Assembly: GCF_000024845.1 (NCBI RefSeq) | Contig: NC_013501.1 | Location: 1,716,874-1,780,873 of the forward strand | DNA: 64,000 bases | Source of the DNA: Rhodothermus marinus DSM 4252 | GTDB taxonomy: Bacteria; Bacteroidota; Rhodothermia; Rhodothermales; Rhodothermaceae | Direction of reading: 5' to 3' | In this document: positions 22,546 through 58,824 of the stretch, piece after piece | Numbering within the stretch: the first letter of the stretch is position 1 | Layout: each line of letters opens with the position of its first letter | Notes under the pieces: generated by a model | Told to the model about the DNA's origin: nothing | Seen by the model: the letters and a program-made list of their open reading frames with translations, nothing else | Database searches by the model: none | Position numbers and translations under genes: made by a program

Positions 22546-23517
22546 ATGTCGCGTCCCTGGCCGTCCTACCTGGCACTGAGCCGTGAGGAATGGCAGCGCC
22601 GCGTCGAACAGGCCCGCGCCATGCTGGCCGACTGCCGGGCCTGTCCCCGCGACTGCGGCGTCAACCGCCTGGAAGATCGGTACGCCGCCTGCAAGACGGG
22701 CCGCTATGCACTCGTGAGCAGTTACTTCCCGCACTTTGGCGAAGAGGACTGTCTGCGGGGCTGGAACGGTTCGGGCACGATCTTTTTCGCCCATTGCAAC
22801 CTGCGTTGCGTCTTCTGCCAGAACTATGACATCAGCCAGGCCATCAAGCCACACAAGGCGCCGCCGGGGCATCCGCCCGAAGCCATTGCGGCCATGATGC
22901 TGGAGCTGCAGGAGCTCGGCTGCCACAACATCAACCTGGTCACGCCCGAGCACGTCGTCCCTCAGATCGTCGAGGCCCTGGCGATTGCCGTTGAACACGG
23001 CCTGCGCCTGCCCATCGTCTACAACACCAGCGCCTACGACCGCCTCGAAAGCCTGCGGTTGCTCGAAGGCATCGTCGATATCTACATGCCGGACTTCAAG
23101 TTCTGGAGCGCGGAGCGCAGCCGACGCTACATGAAGGCGGCCGACTATCCCGAACACGCCCGCGCTGCCATCAAAGAAATGCACCGGCAGGTGGGCGATC
23201 TGGAACTGGACGACGAAGGGCTGGCACGCCGCGGCCTGCTCATCCGGCATCTGGTTATGCCCGGCTGTCTGGATGAAACGCGGGCCATTCTGGAATGGAT
23301 CGCCCGCGAGCTCGGCCCCAACACCTACATCAATCTGATGGACCAGTACTATCCGGCCGGACGCGTCAACAGCATGACCTTCCCCGAACTCAACCGCCGC
23401 CTGAGCCCCGACGAGTATGCCGAAGCGCTGCACATCGCCGCCGAGCTGGGCCTGCACCGGCTGGACCGTCGCCGCCCCCACCCCCGCCTGCTCATGAAAA
23501 GCCCCTGGTTCTATTGA
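22546..23517 (+). CDS. Radical SAM protein, PflX-like (COG1313 type)
   Basis: A 323-residue radical S-adenosylmethionine enzyme resembling the PflX/pyruvate-formate-lyase-activase-like group. The cluster-binding motif CNLRCVFC follows GSGTIFFAH at about residues 85-92. Upstream lie four further cysteines (CRACPRDCGVN and AACKTG) typical of this subgroup. HNINLVTPEHVVPQIVEAL and MPDFKFW mark the barrel. Its substrate is unknown; no glycyl-radical partner is nearby. The stop overlaps the end of the convergent Uma2 gene by 7 nt. Confidence 0.88.
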   Translation: MSRPWPSYLALSREEWQRRVEQARAMLADCRACPRDCGVNRLEDRYAACKTGRYALVSSYFPHFGEEDCLRGWNGSGTIFFAHCNLRCVFCQNYDISQAIKPHKAPPGHPPEAIAAMMLELQELGCHNINLVTPEHVVPQIVEALAIAVEHGLRLPIVYNTSAYDRLESLRLLEGIVDIYMPDFKFWSAERSRRYMKAADYPEHARAAIKEMHRQVGDLELDDEGLARRGLLIRHLVMPGCLDETRAILEWIARELGPNTYINLMDQYYPAGRVNSMTFPELNRRLSPDEYAEALHIAAELGLHRLDRRRPHPRLLMKSPWFY

Positions 23518-24122
23518 CTTGGATTTATCTCGGCAAAAAGGTCACGCACCGGTACCTCAAAACCCTTCAACAATGCCGACCGGGCCGTCTCCTCCGGTCC
23601 GAACTTGCCCAGCGGCTCATAGACATGTCCCCGTAGCACATACACCTCGATGGTGCGGTTTTCCGGATCGACGATCCAGTATTCCCGCACGCCGGCCCGG
23701 GCGTATTCAAAGAACTTTTCGCCCCGATCCACCTCACGTGTACCGGGCGAAAGCACTTCCGCCACAAGATCCGGCACGCCGCAGACCTGTTCTCCGATCC
23801 GATCGGCATGCGCCCGGTCGATAAAAAACAGATCCGGCTCCCGAATCTTCCCCGGCCACAGACGCACGGGCAGCGGCGCAAAGCGTACGATTCCCAGGCC
23901 ATGGGCTTCGACGAACGCCTGCAGGCGCAGAAATAGCCGCTGCAATACCGACTGGTGCGTATAGGTAGGGTGCGGAGGCATAATAAGACAGCCTTCCGAA
24001 AGCTCCACGTAGCGGTTGGTCTCCGGCAGGGCAAAATAATCCGCCTCGGTCCACTGCCCCTGCGGCGGAAACAGTTCCGCCACCGGTGCCGGCCGATGAC
24101 CGCGCTGTTCAGCTCGCGCCAT
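23511..24122 (-). CDS. Uma2 family endonuclease-like protein (DUF820)
   Basis: A 203-residue member of the Uma2/DUF820 family with a PD-(D/E)XK nuclease fold. EPDLFFI and PDLVAEVLSPGT are the conserved acidic motifs, followed by KFFEYARAGVREYWIVDP. Members are abundant in cyanobacteria and thermophiles, and their biological role is unclear. The ATG at 24122 lies 2 nt after the tonB stop, with GGAG before it, so it is probably the last gene of the PorV-mtnA-tonB operon. An in-frame GTG at 24128 is less likely. Confidence 0.85.
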   Translation of the reverse strand: MARAEQRGHRPAPVAELFPPQGQWTEADYFALPETNRYVELSEGCLIMPPHPTYTHQSVLQRLFLRLQAFVEAHGLGIVRFAPLPVRLWPGKIREPDLFFIDRAHADRIGEQVCGVPDLVAEVLSPGTREVDRGEKFFEYARAGVREYWIVDPENRTIEVYVLRGHVYEPLGKFGPEETARSALLKGFEVPVRDLFAEINPSQ

Positions 24123-24124
24123 GA

Positions 24125-24871
24125 TCACTCCAGCCGGAAACGGAAGGTGATGGTGCCGGTCTGGTTTTCCGGCGGAACGCCGGGCGGCAGTGGATTGAAG
24201 CGCCAGCGCCGCAGGGCCTCCAGCACGGCGCGTTCCAGCGCCGGGTTGCCTTTGATCAGCGGAATGGCCTGCACCACGCGCCCCTGCGGATCGACCACGA
24301 TGCGCACGCGGATGATGGCGTTGACCTTCTCGGCATAGACGGGCAGCGGCGCCTGCACGAGCGTGCGATCCAGCCCCTCGATCAGATAGGGCGCGCTGCG
24401 CTGATCCTCCTGGCCTTCTCCCTCATTTCCGGTGGCCGCGCCGGCCGTCCCCTCGGCCTGCCCGCCGCCCTGCGGCCGAACAGGTTGCGCGGCTTTGTCG
24501 GGCTCGGGCTTTTTGACCTCGGCCGGGTTGGTCTGCGGCTCCGGCGCCACACGCGTCTCTTCGGGCTCGTTGATCCGCTCCTCTTCCTGGACCGGTGGCG
24601 TCTCGGGCAGCTCCACCGGACGTGTCTTTTCCGGCAGGGCCGCCGTCTCCTCCTGTGGGGTTTCCGGTTGGGGCTCCGGCGCCGCCTCGTTCGGCCGCGG
24701 CTGCTCGGACTGCTGCACGGGGCGCCCCTCGGCCCAGGGCCCCAGCTCCACCTCGATGAAGCCCAGCGGGGGCGCCTGCGTCAGCTGCACGTGCTTGAAC
24801 GCCAGCAACAGCAACACCAGCGCGTGGACGACCAGGCTGGTCAGCAGTCCGATCCAGTCGTTGCGTTTCAT
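24125..24871 (-). CDS. tonB: TonB-family energy transducer
   Basis: A 248-residue TonB-like protein. One N-terminal transmembrane helix (about 7-25, LLTSLVVHALVLLLLAF, with the His typical of TonB) is followed by a long acidic and proline-rich periplasmic spacer (about 45-150). The C-terminal TonB domain (about 165-248) contains VNAIIRVRIVVDPQGRVVQAIPLIKG and ALRRWRFNPL. It links ExbBD at the inner membrane to TonB-dependent transporters such as the SusC at 13458. It is 6 nt after mtnA. The exbBD-like genes of this window lie far away at 57690-58824. Confidence 0.92.
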   Translation of the reverse strand: MKRNDWIGLLTSLVVHALVLLLLAFKHVQLTQAPPLGFIEVELGPWAEGRPVQQSEQPRPNEAAPEPQPETPQEETAALPEKTRPVELPETPPVQEEERINEPEETRVAPEPQTNPAEVKKPEPDKAAQPVRPQGGGQAEGTAGAATGNEGEGQEDQRSAPYLIEGLDRTLVQAPLPVYAEKVNAIIRVRIVVDPQGRVVQAIPLIKGNPALERAVLEALRRWRFNPLPPGVPPENQTGTITFRFRLE

Positions 24872-24877
24872 GGCCGG

Positions 24878-25939
<1,062 letters not shown>

Positions 25940-50418: not shown

Positions 50419-51117
50419 TTAGCGAAGGCGCCGCATCCAGTCGTTCAGTTTCTTGAGCGTCGCGGCGGCCACGGCCGTGGCCGCAGCCCCCAGCAGCGTT
50501 TCGGCCGCGTCCAGCCCGCGGCGCGCTTCCCGTTTGACGCGTTTCGACGTGTGGCGGGCGGTTTCTTCAAGCGACTCGGCGGCTTCCGAGGCCTGCTCGG
50601 CCAGCATCTTGCTGAGCGCCTCAGCCTGCGTCCGGATGCGCTCGCTCAGTTCGGCCGCCTGTTCGGGCAATTCTTTCCGCAACGCGCGCGCCCGCTCGGC
50701 CACCGTTTCGCCCAGCTCATCCACCTGTTCGGCGAGCTGGCGGCTGAGCAGACGCGCCCGCTTGCGGGCCTGGCGGGCCAGTCGCTCGGCCTGACGCCGC
50801 GCCCGCTCGGTCAGCGGAGGCGGCGAAGGCTGCAGCGCCATGGCCACCAGGCGTCCGGCCAGCACGCCGGCTCCCAGCGCCAGCAGCAGCGCCAGCGTGG
50901 GGTTCTCGCTCACCCAGTCGCGTGCCCGCTGCGCGGCCGCCTGCGCATCCAGACGGGCCAGTTGCTCCCGCAGCCGCTGCAGCGCCTCGTTCAGCTCCTG
51001 GCGCGTCTTCTCGTAGGCATCGACCAGCTCCTGGCGTGCCTTTTCATACGTTTCGCCCAGCCCGCCACCCGTCGCTTCGGTCTGCGCTTCCTGCGTCTGT
51101 TTTTTCTGTTCCGCCAC
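50419..51117 (-). CDS. DUF883-like membrane-anchored coiled-coil protein
   Basis: A 232-residue protein, almost wholly helical. Amphipathic helices rich in E, A, R and Q (about 22-65) lead to WVSENPTLALLLALGAGVLAG, a short membrane segment with the GxGxxxG pattern of YqjD/ElaB/DUF883 proteins. A long A/E/R-rich coiled-coil (about 100-200) with KKLNDW near the end follows. In other bacteria DUF883 proteins tether ribosomes or bind membranes. Here the long C-terminal coiled coil is additional. It forms a pair with the small gene at 51155, 37 nt upstream. Confidence 0.7.
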   Translation of the reverse strand: MAEQKKQTQEAQTEATGGGLGETYEKARQELVDAYEKTRQELNEALQRLREQLARLDAQAAAQRARDWVSENPTLALLLALGAGVLAGRLVAMALQPSPPPLTERARRQAERLARQARKRARLLSRQLAEQVDELGETVAERARALRKELPEQAAELSERIRTQAEALSKMLAEQASEAAESLEETARHTSKRVKREARRGLDAAETLLGAAATAVAAATLKKLNDWMRRLR

Positions 51118-51558: not shown

Positions 51559-54500
51559 ATGCTGCGCATCATCGGGCGGCTCTGCACGCTGAGCCTGTTG
51601 TTCTTCGGACCTGTGGCACTGCAGGCGCAGCCTGCGCCGCCGGGTCCGGCCGTTTCGTTCGCCCATGCCCTGGCGCTGCACAGCGACGGATTCTACACGC
51701 TCTCGGCCCAGACGTTTGCGCAGTTTCGGAGCACGTACCCGGACGATCCGCGGGTCCCCGAGGCGCTGTTTTACGAAGCCGAGGCGCGGCTGGCACTGGG
51801 ACAGACCGACGAGGCGGCCGCCCTGCTCCGCGTGTTCGCCGCCCGCTACCCGACGCATCCGCTGGTCTACGAGGCCCAGCTTGCCCTGGGCAAGTACTTT
51901 TTCGATACCGGGCGCTATGACGACGCCCGCCAGGCCTTCGGCCAGGCGCTGCGTCCCGGCGTGCCCGCCACTCAGGCTGCCCGAGCGCTGTTCTGGATGG
52001 CCGAGTCGGCGCAACGGCTGGGACGTCCGGCCGAGGCCATCGGCTACTATCGGCGGCTGGCCGACACGTACCCGAACACGCGGCTGGCCCCACAGGCGCT
52101 GCTGGCAATGGCTTACACGCAGGTGGAGATGGGCGCCTACGACGAGGCCGCCCGCACCTTCGAAGTGCTGGCCGCACGCTACCCCGCCGCCCCGGAAGCC
52201 CGGGGACTGGGTCTGGCGCTGGCGCAGGTTTACTACGAGCTGGGCGACTACCGCCGTGCCATCGACGAAGTGCAACGTCGCCTGCCCGACCTGAAAGGCG
52301 AGGCGCAGCAACAGGCCTGGCTACTGCTGGCCGAGTCCTACAACCAGCTCCGCGACAGCGAAAACGCCATCGTCTACTACCGTCGCGTACTGGAAGACCC
52401 CGACAGTCCCTACTACCGCCGGGCGCTCTACGGTCTGGCGTGGAATTACTACTTCGAGGGTGTTTACCAGTGGGCGGCCGACCATTTCCGCCAGGTGCGC
52501 GAAGGCCGGCGCGACACGCTCGCCATGAAGGCCACTTACTACGAGGCGGTCTGTCGCAAGCTGGCCCGCGAGCCGCAGCAGGCACTGGAGCTGTTCCGGA
52601 CTGTCGTGCTCGAATGGCCCGACAGTCCGCTGGCCCCCCACGCCCAGTACGAACTGGCCCTGCTGCTCTACGAAATGCGACGGTGGGAAGAAGCGCATGA
52701 CGCGTTCGACTTTCTCGTGCGCACCTACCCCGACAGCGAACTGCTCGGCGACGCGCTCCGGATGCGCGGCTACACGGCCATCGCGCTCGGCCACTTCGAC
52801 GAAGCCTACGAGAGCTTCGACCGCGCCGTGGCCCTACAGGCCGCCTCGCCACAACTCCGCACCGAGATCGCCTTCCAGAAGGCCTGGCTTCAGTACCGCC
52901 AGCAGAACTACGCGGCCGCCAGCGAGGCCTTTCTGGAACTGTACCGTCAGGATCCACGAGGCCCTAAAGCCGGCGATGCCCTTTTCTGGGCGGCCGAAAG
53001 CTTCTACCAGCTGGGCCGGCTCGACCGCGCCGAAGCGCTCTTTCGCGACTACCTCCGGAGTTTTCCCGATGGCGCCCACGTCGAAGCCGCCCACTACGCG
53101 CTGGGCTGGGTCTATTTCCGCCAGCAGCGCTACGAAGCCGCCATTCAGGCCTTCCAGCAGTTTCTGCGGGCCTATCGCCGCACCGAAGAGGCGGTCCCCT
53201 ACCGGCTCGACGCGCTGCTCCGGCTGGCCGACAGCTACTACGCGCTCAAGCGCTATCCCGAGGCCATCCGCTACTATCGCCAGGCGGCCGCCGAAGGCGA
53301 AAGCGACTATGCGCTCTATCAGATCGGCCAGGCCTACTACAACGCAGGCAACTACGAGGAAGCCCTGCGCACCTTCAACCGATTGCTGGAAGAACACCCC
53401 GAAAGCACCTGGCGCGAGGAGGCGCTCTACCAGATCGGCTACATCCATTTCCTGAACCAGGAATACGATCAGGCCATCGCGGCCTACCGGCGGCTGCTCG
53501 AACTGGCCCCGAACGATCCGCTGGCCGCCAAGGCGCAGTACGGCATCGGCGACGCGCTCTTCAATGCGGGACGCCTGGAAGCGGCCGTCAACGCCTACAA
53601 ACGCGTGCTGGAGCGCTATCCGCAGAGTCCGTTCGTGGCCGACGCCGCCACCAGCATCCACTTTGCGCTGATCGCCGCCGGCAACGAAGCGCGCGCGCAG
53701 GCGCTGATCGATTCGTTCGCCACGGCCTACCCGGACACGCGCATCGTGGACGAACTGCGCTTTCGGCGGGCCGAGGCACTCTACCGCAGCGGCCGCTCCG
53801 AGGAGGCCATCCGGGCACTCGAAGCCTTCGTGCGCGGGAGCCATGCGCCGGACCTGATGGGCGAGGCGCTTTACTACCTGGCCACGCTCTACGCAGAACA
53901 GGAACTGTACGACGAGGCCGAGCGCACGCTGCAGCAACTGCTGGCCGCCCATGCCGAGCACCGAAGGATGCCCGAAGCACTGCTCCTGCTGGGTAATGTC
54001 CAGCTGAAGCAGGAGCGCTACGAAGCCGCCCTGGTGAGCTTCCGGCGCCTGGCGTCAATGGCACCGGAGCGCTCCGAGCTGCTGGCCCGTGCCCTCTACG
54101 GCCAGAGCGTCGCCCTGCTGGAGCTGGGCCGCTTCGCCGAGGCACGCCAGGCGCTCACAGAAGCACAGGCGCGTTTTCCGGAAGATGGCCAGCCCGCCAT
54201 CCTGCTGCTCGGGCAGGCACGCCTGGCCGAGGCCGAGGGCCGTCCGGACGAAGCGGAGCGCCTCTACCGGGCGGTGGTCGGTCGCGCCCAGGACGAAGCC
54301 GGTGCCGAGGCGCTCTATCGCCTCGGGGAACTGCTGCTACGCCGGGGCGACCCGCATCGGGCCATCGAAGAGCTGAGCCGTCTGCCCACACTCTTCCCGG
54401 GCTATCCAGAATGGCTGGCCCGTGGCTATCTGGCCCAGGCGCGGGCCTTCCTTGCGCTCGGACAGCGCGGCGAGGCCACCCGCCTTTATGATCTGGTCAT

Positions 54501-54561
54501 CACCGAATTTCCCAACACGTCGTTTGCCCGCATTGCTGCCCAGGAAAAAGCCCGGTTGTAA
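51559..54561 (+). CDS. Exported 1000-residue tetratricopeptide-repeat protein
   Basis: A secreted or periplasmic helical-repeat protein. A signal peptide (about 1-24, VALQAQ) is followed by tandem TPR units over nearly the whole length. Typical repeats read like RYDDARQAFGQAL, AIGYYRRLADTYPNTRLAPQALLAMAY (shown by cores such as YYRRLADTYPNT), RYEAAIQAFQQFL and NYEEALRTFNRLLEEHPES. About 25 repeats fit. Long TPR proteins of this kind (BamD/CpoB/YbgF-like) scaffold envelope complexes. It opens a six-gene rightward cluster ending with ExbD and precedes the beta-barrel gene by 3 nt. Confidence 0.88.
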   Translation: MLRIIGRLCTLSLLFFGPVALQAQPAPPGPAVSFAHALALHSDGFYTLSAQTFAQFRSTYPDDPRVPEALFYEAEARLALGQTDEAAALLRVFAARYPTHPLVYEAQLALGKYFFDTGRYDDARQAFGQALRPGVPATQAARALFWMAESAQRLGRPAEAIGYYRRLADTYPNTRLAPQALLAMAYTQVEMGAYDEAARTFEVLAARYPAAPEARGLGLALAQVYYELGDYRRAIDEVQRRLPDLKGEAQQQAWLLLAESYNQLRDSENAIVYYRRVLEDPDSPYYRRALYGLAWNYYFEGVYQWAADHFRQVREGRRDTLAMKATYYEAVCRKLAREPQQALELFRTVVLEWPDSPLAPHAQYELALLLYEMRRWEEAHDAFDFLVRTYPDSELLGDALRMRGYTAIALGHFDEAYESFDRAVALQAASPQLRTEIAFQKAWLQYRQQNYAAASEAFLELYRQDPRGPKAGDALFWAAESFYQLGRLDRAEALFRDYLRSFPDGAHVEAAHYALGWVYFRQQRYEAAIQAFQQFLRAYRRTEEAVPYRLDALLRLADSYYALKRYPEAIRYYRQAAAEGESDYALYQIGQAYYNAGNYEEALRTFNRLLEEHPESTWREEALYQIGYIHFLNQEYDQAIAAYRRLLELAPNDPLAAKAQYGIGDALFNAGRLEAAVNAYKRVLERYPQSPFVADAATSIHFALIAAGNEARAQALIDSFATAYPDTRIVDELRFRRAEALYRSGRSEEAIRALEAFVRGSHAPDLMGEALYYLATLYAEQELYDEAERTLQQLLAAHAEHRRMPEALLLLGNVQLKQERYEAALVSFRRLASMAPERSELLARALYGQSVALLELGRFAEARQALTEAQARFPEDGQPAILLLGQARLAEAEGRPDEAERLYRAVVGRAQDEAGAEALYRLGELLLRRGDPHRAIEELSRLPTLFPGYPEWLARGYLAQARAFLALGQRGEATRLYDLVITEFPNTSFARIAAQEKARL

Positions 54562-54564
54562 GCC

Positions 54565-56298
54565 ATGCCGCGATTTTTCAGGATTTTTCTGCTCCTGAGC
54601 TGGGCGATCGCCGCGCCAGCACTGGCTCAGGTGCGCGATACGGCGCAGGTCATCCTGCCGGATCTGGCCCCCCGCGAGGTGGAGATCCGGGGCACACTGG
54701 AGATCTCGTTTCCGTCGCTGCAGCGCCAGCCGCTCATCGGCTTCAACCCACCGCCGCTGGTGCCCCAGATTCCCCCGGATCGCCAGCCGTACGTGGAGCC
54801 CTACCGTCAGGCGGCCGCCGCCCTGTCGCCGGTGTCCCTGAAGCGGCCGGAGCCGCCCCCCATTGCCACCATCGGCCGCGGCAATCCGGCCAACGGTCTG
54901 TTCGAAAGCACCCTAGGGCGCTACCTGACCCGCTCGTTCAACGGCTACCTGGAATATCCGCTGACCGGAGGCCTTACGCCCTATGCCGCGCTCATCTACA
55001 CGGGAAGCAGCGGATTTCAGCCGTTTGCAGAACGCTCTGACCTGGAAGCCCCGTACGATCTGCTCGACGCCCGAACCGGCCTGGCCTACACCGGTCGCCT
55101 GCAGGCAGGCCTGGAACTGGGGGGCTTCGCCCATCGGTACCGCCTCTACGGCCTGGTACATGACCTGACCTACAGCGCACCGCGCCGCGAAGGTCAGGGC
55201 GGCTACGTGCAACTCCGGGTAGCCCCTTCGGCCCAGGACGATCTGGAAGGCTTCCTTCAGGTACGGCTGAGCACTATTCGCTATGCGACCACCTACCCGG
55301 CCGGTTTCTTCGGCAGCCAGAACCCTGTAGAACGAGCCCTGCTGGAGCGTCGGCTGGACCTGAGCGGAGCGTTCAGCTATCCGTTTGCGACCGGCACGCT
55401 TTCGTTCGACCTGCAGGGGCACGTAGCCGGCATCGATCCGCAGGCCTTTCTGGAGTCCGACGTACGCTCGCTGGCCGTCGGAGCCACCTGGCAATTTGCT
55501 TTTGGATCCACGCTGCAGCTGACGGTGGGCGGCCGCCTGCTGGGCCTGGAAGCCACGCCTACAAACACCCGGGCGCTTTATGTATCGCCCGTGCTGGAAC
55601 TGGCAATGTTTCCGGCTCCCGGCACGCGGCTGTACGTGCGCCAGCAGCCATCGCTTGAGGCCTACCGGCTCGACGAGCTCCTGCAGGAAACGCCCGTGCT
55701 GGATGAACCCCTGATGCCACAACCGGCCCTGCGTCACATCGACCTGGAAGCCGGCGGAGACTTCTTCCTGGGGGCGCTTCGGCTGCAGACGGCCGCGGGC
55801 TTCACGCAGGCCCCCTTAGAACGCTATCGTTACCAGATCCGCCGGTCTTTCCCGCCGGTCGTCTCGGTCACCCGCCTGAACTACGCCGAGCAGCGCCGCC
55901 TGTACCTTCGCACCGAGGCCACGCTGACCCTGCCCGCCGGCCTGCAGGGCACGCTGGGCCTGACGTTCCAGCAGGTCAATCTTCAGGAGACCAATCAACG
56001 CGTTCCCTACGAGCCGAACTGGCTGGCCCACCTGCTGCTGAGCTATCGGTTTGACCGGCAACGCGGCTTCATTCAGTTGCTGGGTCGCTATGAGGGCGTC
56101 CGCTATGCCGCCTTCAACAAGCAGGATCGATTGTCGCCCTACCTGGACCTCGACCTGCAGGCCACCTATCAGCTCACGACGGCCATCGGTGTCGTGGCGC
56201 GCCTGGAAAACCTGGCACCTCGGCGCTACCGCACCCGCTGGCTTTATTATCCAGAGCCTTCCGCCATCTTCAGCGCGGGCATGAGAATTCGCTGGTAG
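54565..56298 (+). CDS. Outer-membrane beta-barrel protein (TonB-receptor-like, no plug recognised)
   Basis: A 577-residue exported protein. A signal peptide (ALAQ) is followed by a proline-rich N-terminal part (about 25-95) with no clear plug or TonB box. Alternating amphipathic strands from about 105 (LTRSFNGYLEYPLTGGLTPYAALIYTGS) to the C-terminal SAGMRIRW indicate an outer-membrane barrel of about 22 strands. The strand TAIGVVARLENLAPRRYRTRW resembles the last strands of TonB-dependent receptors. The ATG is 3 nt after the TPR gene, and the two products probably form a complex. Its ligand is unknown. Confidence 0.8.
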   Translation: MPRFFRIFLLLSWAIAAPALAQVRDTAQVILPDLAPREVEIRGTLEISFPSLQRQPLIGFNPPPLVPQIPPDRQPYVEPYRQAAAALSPVSLKRPEPPPIATIGRGNPANGLFESTLGRYLTRSFNGYLEYPLTGGLTPYAALIYTGSSGFQPFAERSDLEAPYDLLDARTGLAYTGRLQAGLELGGFAHRYRLYGLVHDLTYSAPRREGQGGYVQLRVAPSAQDDLEGFLQVRLSTIRYATTYPAGFFGSQNPVERALLERRLDLSGAFSYPFATGTLSFDLQGHVAGIDPQAFLESDVRSLAVGATWQFAFGSTLQLTVGGRLLGLEATPTNTRALYVSPVLELAMFPAPGTRLYVRQQPSLEAYRLDELLQETPVLDEPLMPQPALRHIDLEAGGDFFLGALRLQTAAGFTQAPLERYRYQIRRSFPPVVSVTRLNYAEQRRLYLRTEATLTLPAGLQGTLGLTFQQVNLQETNQRVPYEPNWLAHLLLSYRFDRQRGFIQLLGRYEGVRYAAFNKQDRLSPYLDLDLQATYQLTTAIGVVARLENLAPRRYRTRWLYYPEPSAIFSAGMRIRW

Positions 56299-56300
56299 GC

Positions 56301-56332
56301 TTGGACTCTGTACATTTTTCGTCGTAGTTTTA
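56301..56332 (+). promoter_or_regulatory. Candidate promoter of the HU-like gene
   Basis: TTG (56301-56303) and TAGTTTTA (56325-56332) are 21 nt apart, close to the -33 TTG / -7 TAnnTTTG pattern, 29 nt before the ATG at 56361. It could start a separate HU-SPOR-ExbBD transcript within the cluster. Confidence 0.35.
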
Positions 56333-56360
56333 GGTAACCTACCGTTAACACAAAGGCCCC

Positions 56361-56567
56361 ATGGAAACGCCCACCCCTGAACAGGTAGCACAGGCACTGG
56401 CCGAACTGGTGCAGGAGGCCCTGATGCGTGGCGAGTCGGTGCACGTGCCCGGTCTCGGGACGTTCTACGTGGACCACCGCGGCAGCACGACCGAACGGCT
56501 GCCGGACGGGCGCGTGGTGCTGCATCCGCCCCGTGATCTCCCCGCCTTTACGCCAGAGGCTTCCTGA
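56361..56567 (+). CDS. Small HU/IHF-like protein without DNA-binding arms
   Basis: A 68-residue protein with the core of an HU fold: helices at about 6-24 (PEQVAQALAELVQEALMRGE), then VHVPGLGTFYVDHR, equivalent to the GFGTF hairpin of HU, and a short ending PPRDLPAFTPEAS like the HU C terminus. The long DNA-wrapping arms and their basic residues are absent, so classical DNA bending is unlikely. It resembles the HU-CCDC81-type variants seen with SPOR domains in Bacteroidota. The next gene encodes a related N-terminal domain, 24 nt downstream. Confidence 0.65.
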   Translation: METPTPEQVAQALAELVQEALMRGESVHVPGLGTFYVDHRGSTTERLPDGRVVLHPPRDLPAFTPEAS

Positions 56568-56591
56568 CCCGCCACCAACCGGAACTGTCGC

Positions 56592-57677
56592 ATGTCCGCG
56601 TCGCTGATTCAGCAACTGGCCGAACGACTCGGTTGCACGCCCGAAGCCGCCGAGGCAGCGCTTCGCCAGTACATCGACCGCATCCAGAAGCAACTGGCGC
56701 AGGAAGGACAGGCCATCCTGCCCGGGTTGGGACATCTGATTCGCAGCGAAGAAGGCCTGCGGTTCGAGCCCGACGCTTCGCTGGCGCAGGCCGTCAACCA
56801 TCGCTTTGCCGGACTGGAGCCGGTGACTGTGGAGCCGCCCTCGTCGCAGGCGTATCGCAAGACAGAAGTCGTTCTGCCGGAAGGCGAAGAATCGGAAGCG
56901 ACCGAAGAGACCGAAGCTGCGGAAGAAGCTCCCACTTCGCCTTTCTACGAAGTGGAGCCTGAAACCCCACAGGCGGAAGCGCCTCCTCCCGAAGCTGAAG
57001 AGGCGGCTTCGGCGGTCATGGAAGAAGCGCCGACAACGCCGCCTCCCGAACCCGAGCCTGAGCCGGAACCGGAAGCCTCGGCCGAGTCGGCGGAGCCAAC
57101 GCCGCCCTCACCAGAGCCCTCGCTGCGCCCCCCGCGGCCTCCTCGCTTTCGCGTCGAGGAAGAGCGGCGTCGCGGGCTTCCGGTCTGGGTGCCGGCTGCG
57201 CTGCTCATCGTGGTGCTCGGTGCCGTGGCCGTCTGGTTCCTGCTGTTTTCGCGTCCCTCGGAGCCGGAGGTCGTCCCTCCTGCGCCGTCTCAGGCTGAAG
57301 TTCAACCGACCGCGCCGGCCGAAACGACCGCTGCAGCCGCCACACCCGCTGCCGATACCGCTGCCGAGACGTCCACCCCGACCGTCGAAGCCCCACCGCC
57401 GCCCGCTCCGCCGGCTCCCGGCGACTATGCGCTGATCGTCGGATCGGTAACCAGCCAGGCGGCCGCCGAACGCATTGCGGAACGCTTTCGCCGCACGCTG
57501 TCCGAACGAGGCCTACCGGTCACCATCGTAGCCACCTCGACAGGTGGAACCACCCGATACCGGGTGGCGGTTGGACGGTATAGTTCGCCTGAGGAAGCGC
57601 TGGCCGCCAAACGCCAGCTTGGCGACGTGCTGCCTCCGGATGCCTGGGTGCTTCGGATACCTTCCACGACCCAATAA
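56592..57677 (+). CDS. HU-like - transmembrane - SPOR domain protein
   Basis: A 361-residue bitopic protein. Residues about 1-75 are an HU/CCDC81-like domain (IQQLAERLGCTPEAAEAALRQYIDRI, ILPGLGHLIRSEEG). An acidic, proline-rich stretch (about 95-180) with a Pro-Glu repeat follows, then a basic stop (RVEEERRRG) and one membrane helix (about 198-219). The periplasmic part has a Pro/Ala/Thr linker and a SPOR domain (about 277-356, YALIVGSVTSQAAAERIAERF, RYRVAVGRYSSPEEALAAKRQL). SPOR domains bind denuded peptidoglycan at division sites. The protein therefore links the cytoplasm to the cell wall. It lies before ExbB/ExbD. Confidence 0.82.
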   Translation: MSASLIQQLAERLGCTPEAAEAALRQYIDRIQKQLAQEGQAILPGLGHLIRSEEGLRFEPDASLAQAVNHRFAGLEPVTVEPPSSQAYRKTEVVLPEGEESEATEETEAAEEAPTSPFYEVEPETPQAEAPPPEAEEAASAVMEEAPTTPPPEPEPEPEPEASAESAEPTPPSPEPSLRPPRPPRFRVEEERRRGLPVWVPAALLIVVLGAVAVWFLLFSRPSEPEVVPPAPSQAEVQPTAPAETTAAAATPAADTAAETSTPTVEAPPPPAPPAPGDYALIVGSVTSQAAAERIAERFRRTLSERGLPVTIVATSTGGTTRYRVAVGRYSSPEEALAAKRQLGDVLPPDAWVLRIPSTTQ

Positions 57678-57689
57678 TCTGACCCCGAC

Positions 57690-58406
57690 ATGGTGCTGCT
57701 GCAAGCCGTCTCGTTGCCGACCGATACGCTAAACGCATTGGTTCCGCCCGCTACTTCCATGTCGCTGCTCGACATCCTGGTGCAGGGCGGGTGGATCATG
57801 ATCCCTATCGGGCTGCTTTCGCTGCTTACCATCTACCTGATCGTCGAGCGCCTCATCACCGTGCAGCGGGCCAAAACCGACCCGCGCCAGATCATGGATC
57901 GCGTGCGCGACTACGTGGAGGCCGGCGACATCCGGGGTGCGCTGGCCTACTGCGAGGCGCAGGACAAACCCATCACGCGCATCCTGCGCCGGGGACTGGA
58001 GCGGCTGGGCCGCCCGATCTCGGAGATCCGCGATGCCGTCGAAGCGGCCGGCAAGTACGAGGCGTTCGAGCTGGAAAAACGCATGGACATCCTGGCCAGC
58101 ATCGCAGGCATCGCCCCCATGCTGGGTTTCCTCGGCACGGTGACCGGCATGATCGAAGCCTTCCAGCAGATCCAGAACCTGCAGGGCAACGTGAACCCCA
58201 GCGTGCTGGCCGGTGGTATCTGGGAGGCGCTGCTCACCACGGCGTTCGGCCTGGTGGTAGGGATTCTGGCCCTGTTCGGCCACAACTTTCTGCTGACGCG
58301 CATCAATCGGCTGGTCAACGACATGGAGCGGTCCGCCACGGACTTCATCGACCTGCTGCAGGAGCCGGTGCCGCGTCCGCGTCGCCAACCCGAAACCCTG
58401 CTCTGA
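57690..58406 (+). CDS. exbB: ExbB/TolQ/MotA family proton-channel subunit
   Basis: A 238-residue inner-membrane protein with three helices: about 30-50 (GGWIMIPIGLLSLLTIYLIVERL), 135-160 (ILASIAGIAPMLGFLGTVTGMIEAF) and 180-205 (EALLTTAFGLVVGILALFGHNFL). APMLGFLGTVTGM is the signature of the family. It assembles with the ExbD encoded 4 nt downstream into a proton-driven motor. The ATG at 57690 lies 12 nt after the HU-SPOR gene; a second in-frame Met at 57759 would shorten the N-terminal tail. No TonB or TolA follows. Confidence 0.93.
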   Translation: MVLLQAVSLPTDTLNALVPPATSMSLLDILVQGGWIMIPIGLLSLLTIYLIVERLITVQRAKTDPRQIMDRVRDYVEAGDIRGALAYCEAQDKPITRILRRGLERLGRPISEIRDAVEAAGKYEAFELEKRMDILASIAGIAPMLGFLGTVTGMIEAFQQIQNLQGNVNPSVLAGGIWEALLTTAFGLVVGILALFGHNFLLTRINRLVNDMERSATDFIDLLQEPVPRPRRQPETLL

Positions 58407-58410
58407 AGCC

Positions 58411-58824
58411 ATGCCCCTGAATTTTTCCACCTCGCGCAAGCCGCTGACCACGTTCGCGCTGGCCGGACTGGCCGACATCGTGCTGCTGCTGCTGATTTTC
58501 TTTCTGCTCACCTCCAGCTTTATCCCCCAGTTCGGCATCCGGGTCAACCTGCCCCGTGTCGAAGCCGGAGCGCCCACGCAGGCCCGGTACGTGACCGTCG
58601 TGATCACCGAAGACGGCCGCTTCTACGTCGAGCAGCAGCAGGTGGCCCGCGAGGACCTGCTCAGCACGCTGCGGGCCGTCAGGGGCGACCGGAATACGCT
58701 CGTGCTTCGCGCCGACCGCAAGGCGACCGTCGATCAGTTCGCCTACGTGGCCAGCGCGGCCAAAGCGCTCGGCATGACAATCCTGATGGCCACCGAGCGC
58801 GCCGATGTGAGCCCGCGCCGCTGA
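58411..58824 (+). CDS. exbD: ExbD/TolR family proton-channel subunit
   Basis: A 137-residue bitopic protein with the N-terminal helix ALAGLADIVLLLLIFFLLTSSF, whose aspartate is the proton-binding residue of the ExbBD/TolQR channel. The periplasmic domain (about 45-130) has VNLPRVEAG, ITEDGRFYVEQQQV, LVLRADRKATVDQFAYVASAAKALGM, the last typical of ExbD. It is the final gene of the cluster and ends 3 nt before the convergent yifB gene. Confidence 0.94.
   Translation: MPLNFSTSRKPLTTFALAGLADIVLLLLIFFLLTSSFIPQFGIRVNLPRVEAGAPTQARYVTVVITEDGRFYVEQQQVAREDLLSTLRAVRGDRNTLVLRADRKATVDQFAYVASAAKALGMTILMATERADVSPRR

Follow-up and report, generated by a model that had tools for sequence, protein, structure and literature searches.

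A cluster of six genes occupies positions 51559–58824 of a 64-kb window of the Rhodothermus marinus genome (the window being the whole stretch of DNA analysed here, C1:1716874–1780873, in a genome of 3.39 Mb). The predicted products combine a proton motor with an outer membrane barrel and two HU-like proteins, which raises two questions: what would transmit the force of the motor, and is the cluster a counterpart of Tol-Pal?

Composition of the cluster

All six open reading frames were confirmed, and domain searches agreed with the names that the original prediction had given to these collinear genes. They lie on the same strand and are tightly packed, with intergenic gaps of 3, 62, 24, 12 and 4 bases. 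The features considered below, including one encoded outside the cluster, are:

51559..54561 (+): exported TPR protein of 1000 aa, a putative periplasmic scaffold (Pfam TPR_6, 4e-97, plus further TPR families)
54565..56298 (+): plugless outer membrane barrel like a TonB receptor, with a disordered N-terminal tail bearing a TonB-box-like segment (AF2 model, Foldseek, PDB profile, motif)
56361..56567 (+): HU1, the first HU domain, as a separate gene of 68 aa (PF00216, 1.7e-7)
56592..57677 (+): HU-SPOR, arranged as second HU domain (HU2), linker, TM helix, linker and SPOR domain (PF18175, 6e-8; PF05036, 6e-11; TM 200–218)
57690..58406 (+): stator of TolQ/ExbB type (PF01618, 1e-33; start possibly at 57759)
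58411..58824 (+): subunit of TolR/ExbD type, with Asp22 in its TM helix (PF02472, 2e-20)
24125..24871 (-): cluster-type force transducer like TonB/TolA, 248 aa, about 27 kb upstream of the cluster (cluster-transducer profile, PF03544)

The TPR protein began with a signal-like sequence, and no lipobox was seen at its N-terminus. It also matched the tol_pal_ybgF and BamD repeats of NCBIfam, with scores that were inflated by the number of repeats. Divergent from the TPR gene is a coiled-coil-like protein (50419–51117, -), the position of which is kept in many Rhodothermales loci.

The barrel produced a weak match to the Pfam family TonB_dep_Rec_b-barrel. It had been described as lacking a recognisable plug, and this was borne out: no plug family was identified by the domain search at E <= 0.1, and residues 1–106 of an AlphaFold model (mean pLDDT 83) were disordered, with a confident beta-barrel from residue 110 onwards that had about 22 strands by our own count. 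The best Foldseek matches were the TonB-dependent receptors OprC, FrpB and BtuB (TM about 0.6), and a profile of the barrel compared with the PDB likewise retrieved TonB-dependent receptors (best 1.5e-10). The tail of the R. marinus barrel contained the segment LPDLAPREVEIRG, which includes the TonB-box-like REVEIRG; the counterpart segments were IELPDFVITG in Ignavibacteria barrels and LQEYTIVG in Calditrichota. Of 116 barrels, 62 carried the TonB-box-like pattern, compared with 6 expected by shuffling, but because the pattern was chosen after the sequences had been viewed, the motif is treated as a lead.

The two motor subunits were those of a proton motor of the ExbB/ExbD kind, as anticipated, both in their domain matches and in their key residues: the pore threonine of the GT(V/I) motif was invariant in 18/18 stators, while Asp22 of the TolR-type subunit was invariant in 12/12 sequences, E. 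coli TolR and ExbD included. Comparison with NCBIfam gave the stator 94 bits for TolQ and 55 bits for ExbB, both below cut-off, and the order of matches in the PDB also placed TolQ nearer than ExbB. By score the stator is closer to TolQ, neither cut-off being passed. A stator tree with E. coli TolQ and ExbB, the second R. marinus ExbB and MotA contained long branches that made the placement unusable. Other members of the superfamily in the genome were an ExbB with two ExbD-like genes (L017) and MotAB (L018).

HU1 was matched best by Bac_DNA_binding (1.7e-7), with weaker scores for the CCDC81-type HU families, and its start falls inside helix 2 of the HU fold. The prediction of one TM helix and a SPOR domain in HU-SPOR held (TM 200–218; SPOR, 6e-11); its HU part matched HU-CCDC81_bac_2 (6e-8) and Bac_DNA_binding (6e-5). 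The PF18175 score of the R. marinus protein was 32.8 against a curated cut-off of 35, which its relatives exceed. Since PF18175 alone overlooks many HU-SPOR proteins of Rhodothermia, its absence was left out of the evidence. By sequence, an arm-like hairpin is kept in HU1, while the arm is shortened in HU2. Most Rhodothermia encode HU1 separately, whereas in Bacteroidia and some Rhodothermia (L062, L063, L072, L073, L081, L082) HU1 and HU2-SPOR are one fused protein, an indication that in R. marinus the separately encoded HU1 acts together with HU2-SPOR. In an AF2 model of a fused relative, HU1, HU2 and SPOR each reached a pLDDT of around 90 or above; its structural matches included HU, CwlC and FtsN, with weak E-values. 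Proteins with two HU domains, a TM helix and a SPOR domain have reportedly been described in Bacteroidetes by Burroughs et al. in 2017 as HU-CCDC81-SPOR (Pfam PF18174/PF18175). The present case differs in that HU1 is separate in most Rhodothermia and that the pair is linked to a whole motor-barrel unit. In one Ignavibacteria locus (L232, 8400–8927), the HU-SPOR position is held by a TM-SPOR-like protein of 175 aa without HU.

An unlinked transducer

The observation that a TonB or TolA gene is missing held for the cluster itself, but not beyond it, because an ortholog of the cluster transducer is encoded in the same window. A whole-genome search, using a profile built from the transducers of clusters in class Rhodothermia, produced a full-length match at C1:1741001–1741744 (-), that is, window positions 24125–24871 (-), with an E-value of 5.2e-61. 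This protein was 33–44% identical to its relatives in the class, shared with them a FIEVxxG segment following the TM helix, and matched PF03544 above cut-off; its gene is flanked by an IF-2B family gene (24878–25939) and a Uma2 gene (23511–24128). Membership of the transducer family was established by these comparisons, and the protein would be physically coupled to the motor.

The position of the transducer gene varies among lineages. In 18/18 loci of the class outside Rhodothermales (L079–L096), TolR was directly followed by a gene of about 270 aa with a TonB_C-like C-terminal domain, and five Bacteroidia loci (L132, L133, L137, L139, L143) had the order TolQ-TolR-TonB, then FolC (identified by sequence). 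In Rhodothermales, TonB was not adjacent to TolR, and most genomes had a full-length transducer ortholog away from the cluster. Among 49 Rhodothermales, the transducer was found in 39/42 genomes with the cluster TolQ ortholog and in 1/7 without it (Fisher, 4e-5), a value that stands for about two losses, since those seven genomes represent just two families (f7 and f5). As a separate observation, another TonB_C match (L022, 4345–5691, -) fell in a protein of 448 aa that has several hydrophobic helices at its N-terminus and is encoded next to a small BlaI-like gene; by sequence, this is the arrangement of BlaR-type sensors.

Given the position of its gene, HU-SPOR might have replaced TonB/TolA as the transducer of the motor, which was the original proposal: it adjoins TolQ and TolR, it has one TM helix and a periplasmic SPOR domain, and no TonB is adjacent in Rhodothermales. 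This is now very improbable, because a dedicated transducer follows TolR in relatives and its ortholog lies in the R. marinus window. Such a transducer, encoded beside TolR in sister lineages and away from the cluster in R. marinus, co-occurs with HU-SPOR in the clusters of sister families, Bacteroidia and Ignavibacteria. The proposal was rejected on this ground, and also because HU-SPOR and the motor unit dissociate in both directions, as described below.

Conservation and separability of the genes

The cluster TolQ ortholog was identified in 129/146 genomes of the class (E <= 2e-66), with the second paralog well apart at about 1e-37. Gene order was then compared in 40 Rhodothermia loci from 18 families, which were chosen via TolQ; conservation is therefore judged by the remaining genes alone. 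HU-SPOR, TolQ and TolR adjoined in 40/40 loci, and the barrel was upstream of HU-SPOR in every locus where the contig extended far enough. The TPR ortholog stood directly before the barrel in 21/22 loci of Rhodothermales and f15 with sufficient contig. In 16 Balneolia-type loci (L081–L096) the TPR gene was outside the cluster, and a full-length ortholog was found elsewhere in 4/4 genomes tested. Loci of Salinibacter carry the cluster, and relatives of it occur in Bacteroidia, Ignavibacteria (with the full cluster), KSB1 and Calditrichota. Conservation of gene order, proposed as a check on the original prediction, was thus found across the class and beyond. These comparisons indicate that the putative proton-driven machine linking inner and outer membranes is ancient, being conserved over Rhodothermia and in several Bacteroidota families, as well as in neighbouring phyla. 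That these are merely neighbouring housekeeping genes with no joint function is the least probable explanation considered; the parts do separate in some lineages, but their order is conserved over phyla, and parts that are unlinked are jointly absent in family f7.

The 15 genomes of f7 (Rhodothermales) all lacked the cluster TolQ ortholog. The barrel was not found in the 5 genomes searched for it, nor TPR in 3; a transducer search of six genomes returned nothing in five and a generic match of 5e-4 in the other. HU1 and HU2-SPOR were still in place in the four regions of f7 that were read (L270–L273), adjoining pfkB and near folB, maf and a ParA-like gene (matched by eye), which are their neighbours in the R. 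marinus window also. The motor unit is dispensable in f7, because this family is without the unit and, in the genomes searched, without detected TolB. The idea that f7 represents salt-adapted Salinibacteraceae, which would explain the loss, was discarded: neither its base composition nor the pI of its proteins agreed with this, and Salinibacter loci carry the cluster.

The opposite situation was seen in three KSB1/Calditrichota-type genomes, where the order was TPR-barrel-TolQ-TolR-TonB with no gene between barrel and TolQ, and where the HU-SPOR profile found unrelated SPOR proteins only. Because the profile likewise fails to detect the HU part in genuine but remote HU-SPOR proteins, as in Ignavibacteria, the lack of HU-SPOR in these outgroups is judged chiefly from the vacant position in the cluster and from the architecture of the SPOR proteins that were found. 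Finally, in family f5 (L141), TPR, barrel, HU1 and HU-SPOR were kept, but TolQ and TolR were not beside them. Each of these patterns counts against HU-SPOR as the transducer. The best reading is a five-gene, putatively proton-driven unit (TPR, barrel, TolQ, TolR and transducer), with HU1/HU2-SPOR as a separable partner for division or the nucleoid.

Relationship to Tol-Pal and Ton, and possible function

The suggestion that the cluster substitutes for Tol-Pal in division stood in part. A TolB_N domain (PF04052) was found nowhere in the R. marinus genome and was absent from 55/60 Rhodothermales. The five OmpA domains of the genome were all away from the cluster, and neither an OmpA/Pal nor a TolB gene was linked to it, so that a search for canonical Tol-Pal, also proposed at the outset, returned neither TolB nor an OmpA domain linked to the motor. 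The genomic context includes division-type genes: in Balneolia-type loci (L083, L088, L090, L093, L096) the barrel is preceded by ftsK, lolA and LPG_synthase_TM genes, and an FtsE-like gene (by sequence) is beside TPR-barrel in Flavobacteriaceae-type and f35 genomes. Together with the SPOR domain, these ftsK and FtsE-like genes suggest a role in division. The energised, conserved system and the absence of TolB fit the suggestion; the role in constriction is a predicted one.

Compared with the E. coli system (tolQ-tolR-tolA-tolB-pal-cpoB), the likeness consists of a TolQ/TolR-like motor, a transducer with a C-terminal domain of TonB/TolA type and a TPR protein; the link to division would be part of the same likeness. 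The differences are that TolB is lacking, Pal-like OmpA proteins are unlinked, HU-SPOR is added, the outer membrane component is a plugless barrel and the TPR protein has 1000 aa rather than about 260; the transducer gene is unlinked in R. marinus, although linked in sister lineages. The Ton system (ExbB-ExbD-TonB) shares the motor, a TonB_C transducer, a receptor-like barrel and, possibly, a TonB box in the form of the TonB-box-like segment, but here a plug is lacking from the barrel, TPR and HU-SPOR are partners, and the genome holds a separate ExbB with two ExbD-like genes. The cluster was filed under neither system, because it has no TolB or linked Pal and no plug.

In a published survey, tol-pal loci could not be identified in Bacteroidetes, and further systems for stabilising the outer membrane were expected (PMC12204202). 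With TolB absent here as well, the unit is a candidate for the missing system. PorE, a single TPR-TolB-CP-OmpA lipoprotein, has been proposed as a tether between outer membrane and peptidoglycan in Bacteroidetes (PMC12204202); it is an answer to the same gap, but none of the proteins of this cluster has its architecture. No published account of the cluster was found in full-text literature searches.

A motor of the Tol/Ton class, in which TolQ, TolR and the transducer act on a plugless barrel with TPR as scaffold, as a functional counterpart of Tol-Pal, is given a probability of about one half. Points that weigh against it are the lack of a linked OmpA/Pal or TolB gene, the dispensability of the unit in f7 and the position of TPR outside the cluster in Balneolia-type genomes. 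Protons would flow through TolQ/TolR, in which the catalytic residues are conserved by sequence, and the motor would drive the TonB-like transducer encoded at 24125–24871. The C-terminal domain of the transducer may grip the TonB-box-like segment in the tail of the barrel, which would draw the outer membrane inward, and the TPR protein may arrange the contact between transducer and barrel. HU1 and HU2-TM-SPOR would form one HU pair on an inner membrane anchor, and SPOR should bind denuded septal glycan; they are a separable partner, not the transducer, that would target the division site, link it to the nucleoid, or both.

The main rival is energised transport, in which the same five-gene unit, with the plugless barrel as a gated channel for some substrate, the TPR protein as its scaffold and TolQR-TonB as its power source, would import or export across the outer membrane and be unrelated to constriction. 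Pairs of TPR proteins and barrels are typical of secretion ports, which the pairing here resembles, and the fold of the barrel is closest to TonB-dependent receptors, with a TonB-box-like tail. Constriction and transport are functions that the sequence does not separate. Transport is nonetheless held to be a possible but less probable explanation: there is no plug and there are no substrate genes nearby, while the unit is present as one conserved copy from Rhodothermia to Calditrichota and is linked to SPOR, ftsK and FtsE-like genes. The Tol-like motor on a plugless barrel is favoured because of the absence of TolB, the division-type neighbours and the published gap in tol-pal loci. A motor for surface motility or secretion, like Agl-Glt of Myxococcus, was considered improbable; Agl-Glt comprises a TolQ/R-like motor, a TonB-type protein, TPR and barrels, a parts list resembling that of the cluster, but there is one conserved set throughout the class, and the comparison with NCBIfam gave only a weak TPR match to GltC.

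It is tentatively proposed that in FCB bacteria a plugless barrel bearing a TonB box took the place of TolB-Pal, and that in the Bacteroidota/Ignavibacteria branch HU1/HU2-SPOR couples this constriction machine to the septal wall and nucleoid. If so, the FCB motor would hold on to the outer membrane by an integral barrel instead of a lipoprotein, and a Ton/Tol-type motor would act on a barrel without a plug. One conserved gene set has been defined, the unlinked transducer identified and HU-SPOR set apart; thus, the coupling of the outer membrane to division in a major Gram-negative phylum becomes testable by single deletions.

A TolB_N-like domain was observed in 5/60 Rhodothermales (G016, G022, G045, G047, G335), where it occurred only in long frames of 824–1105 aa (L262–L265).
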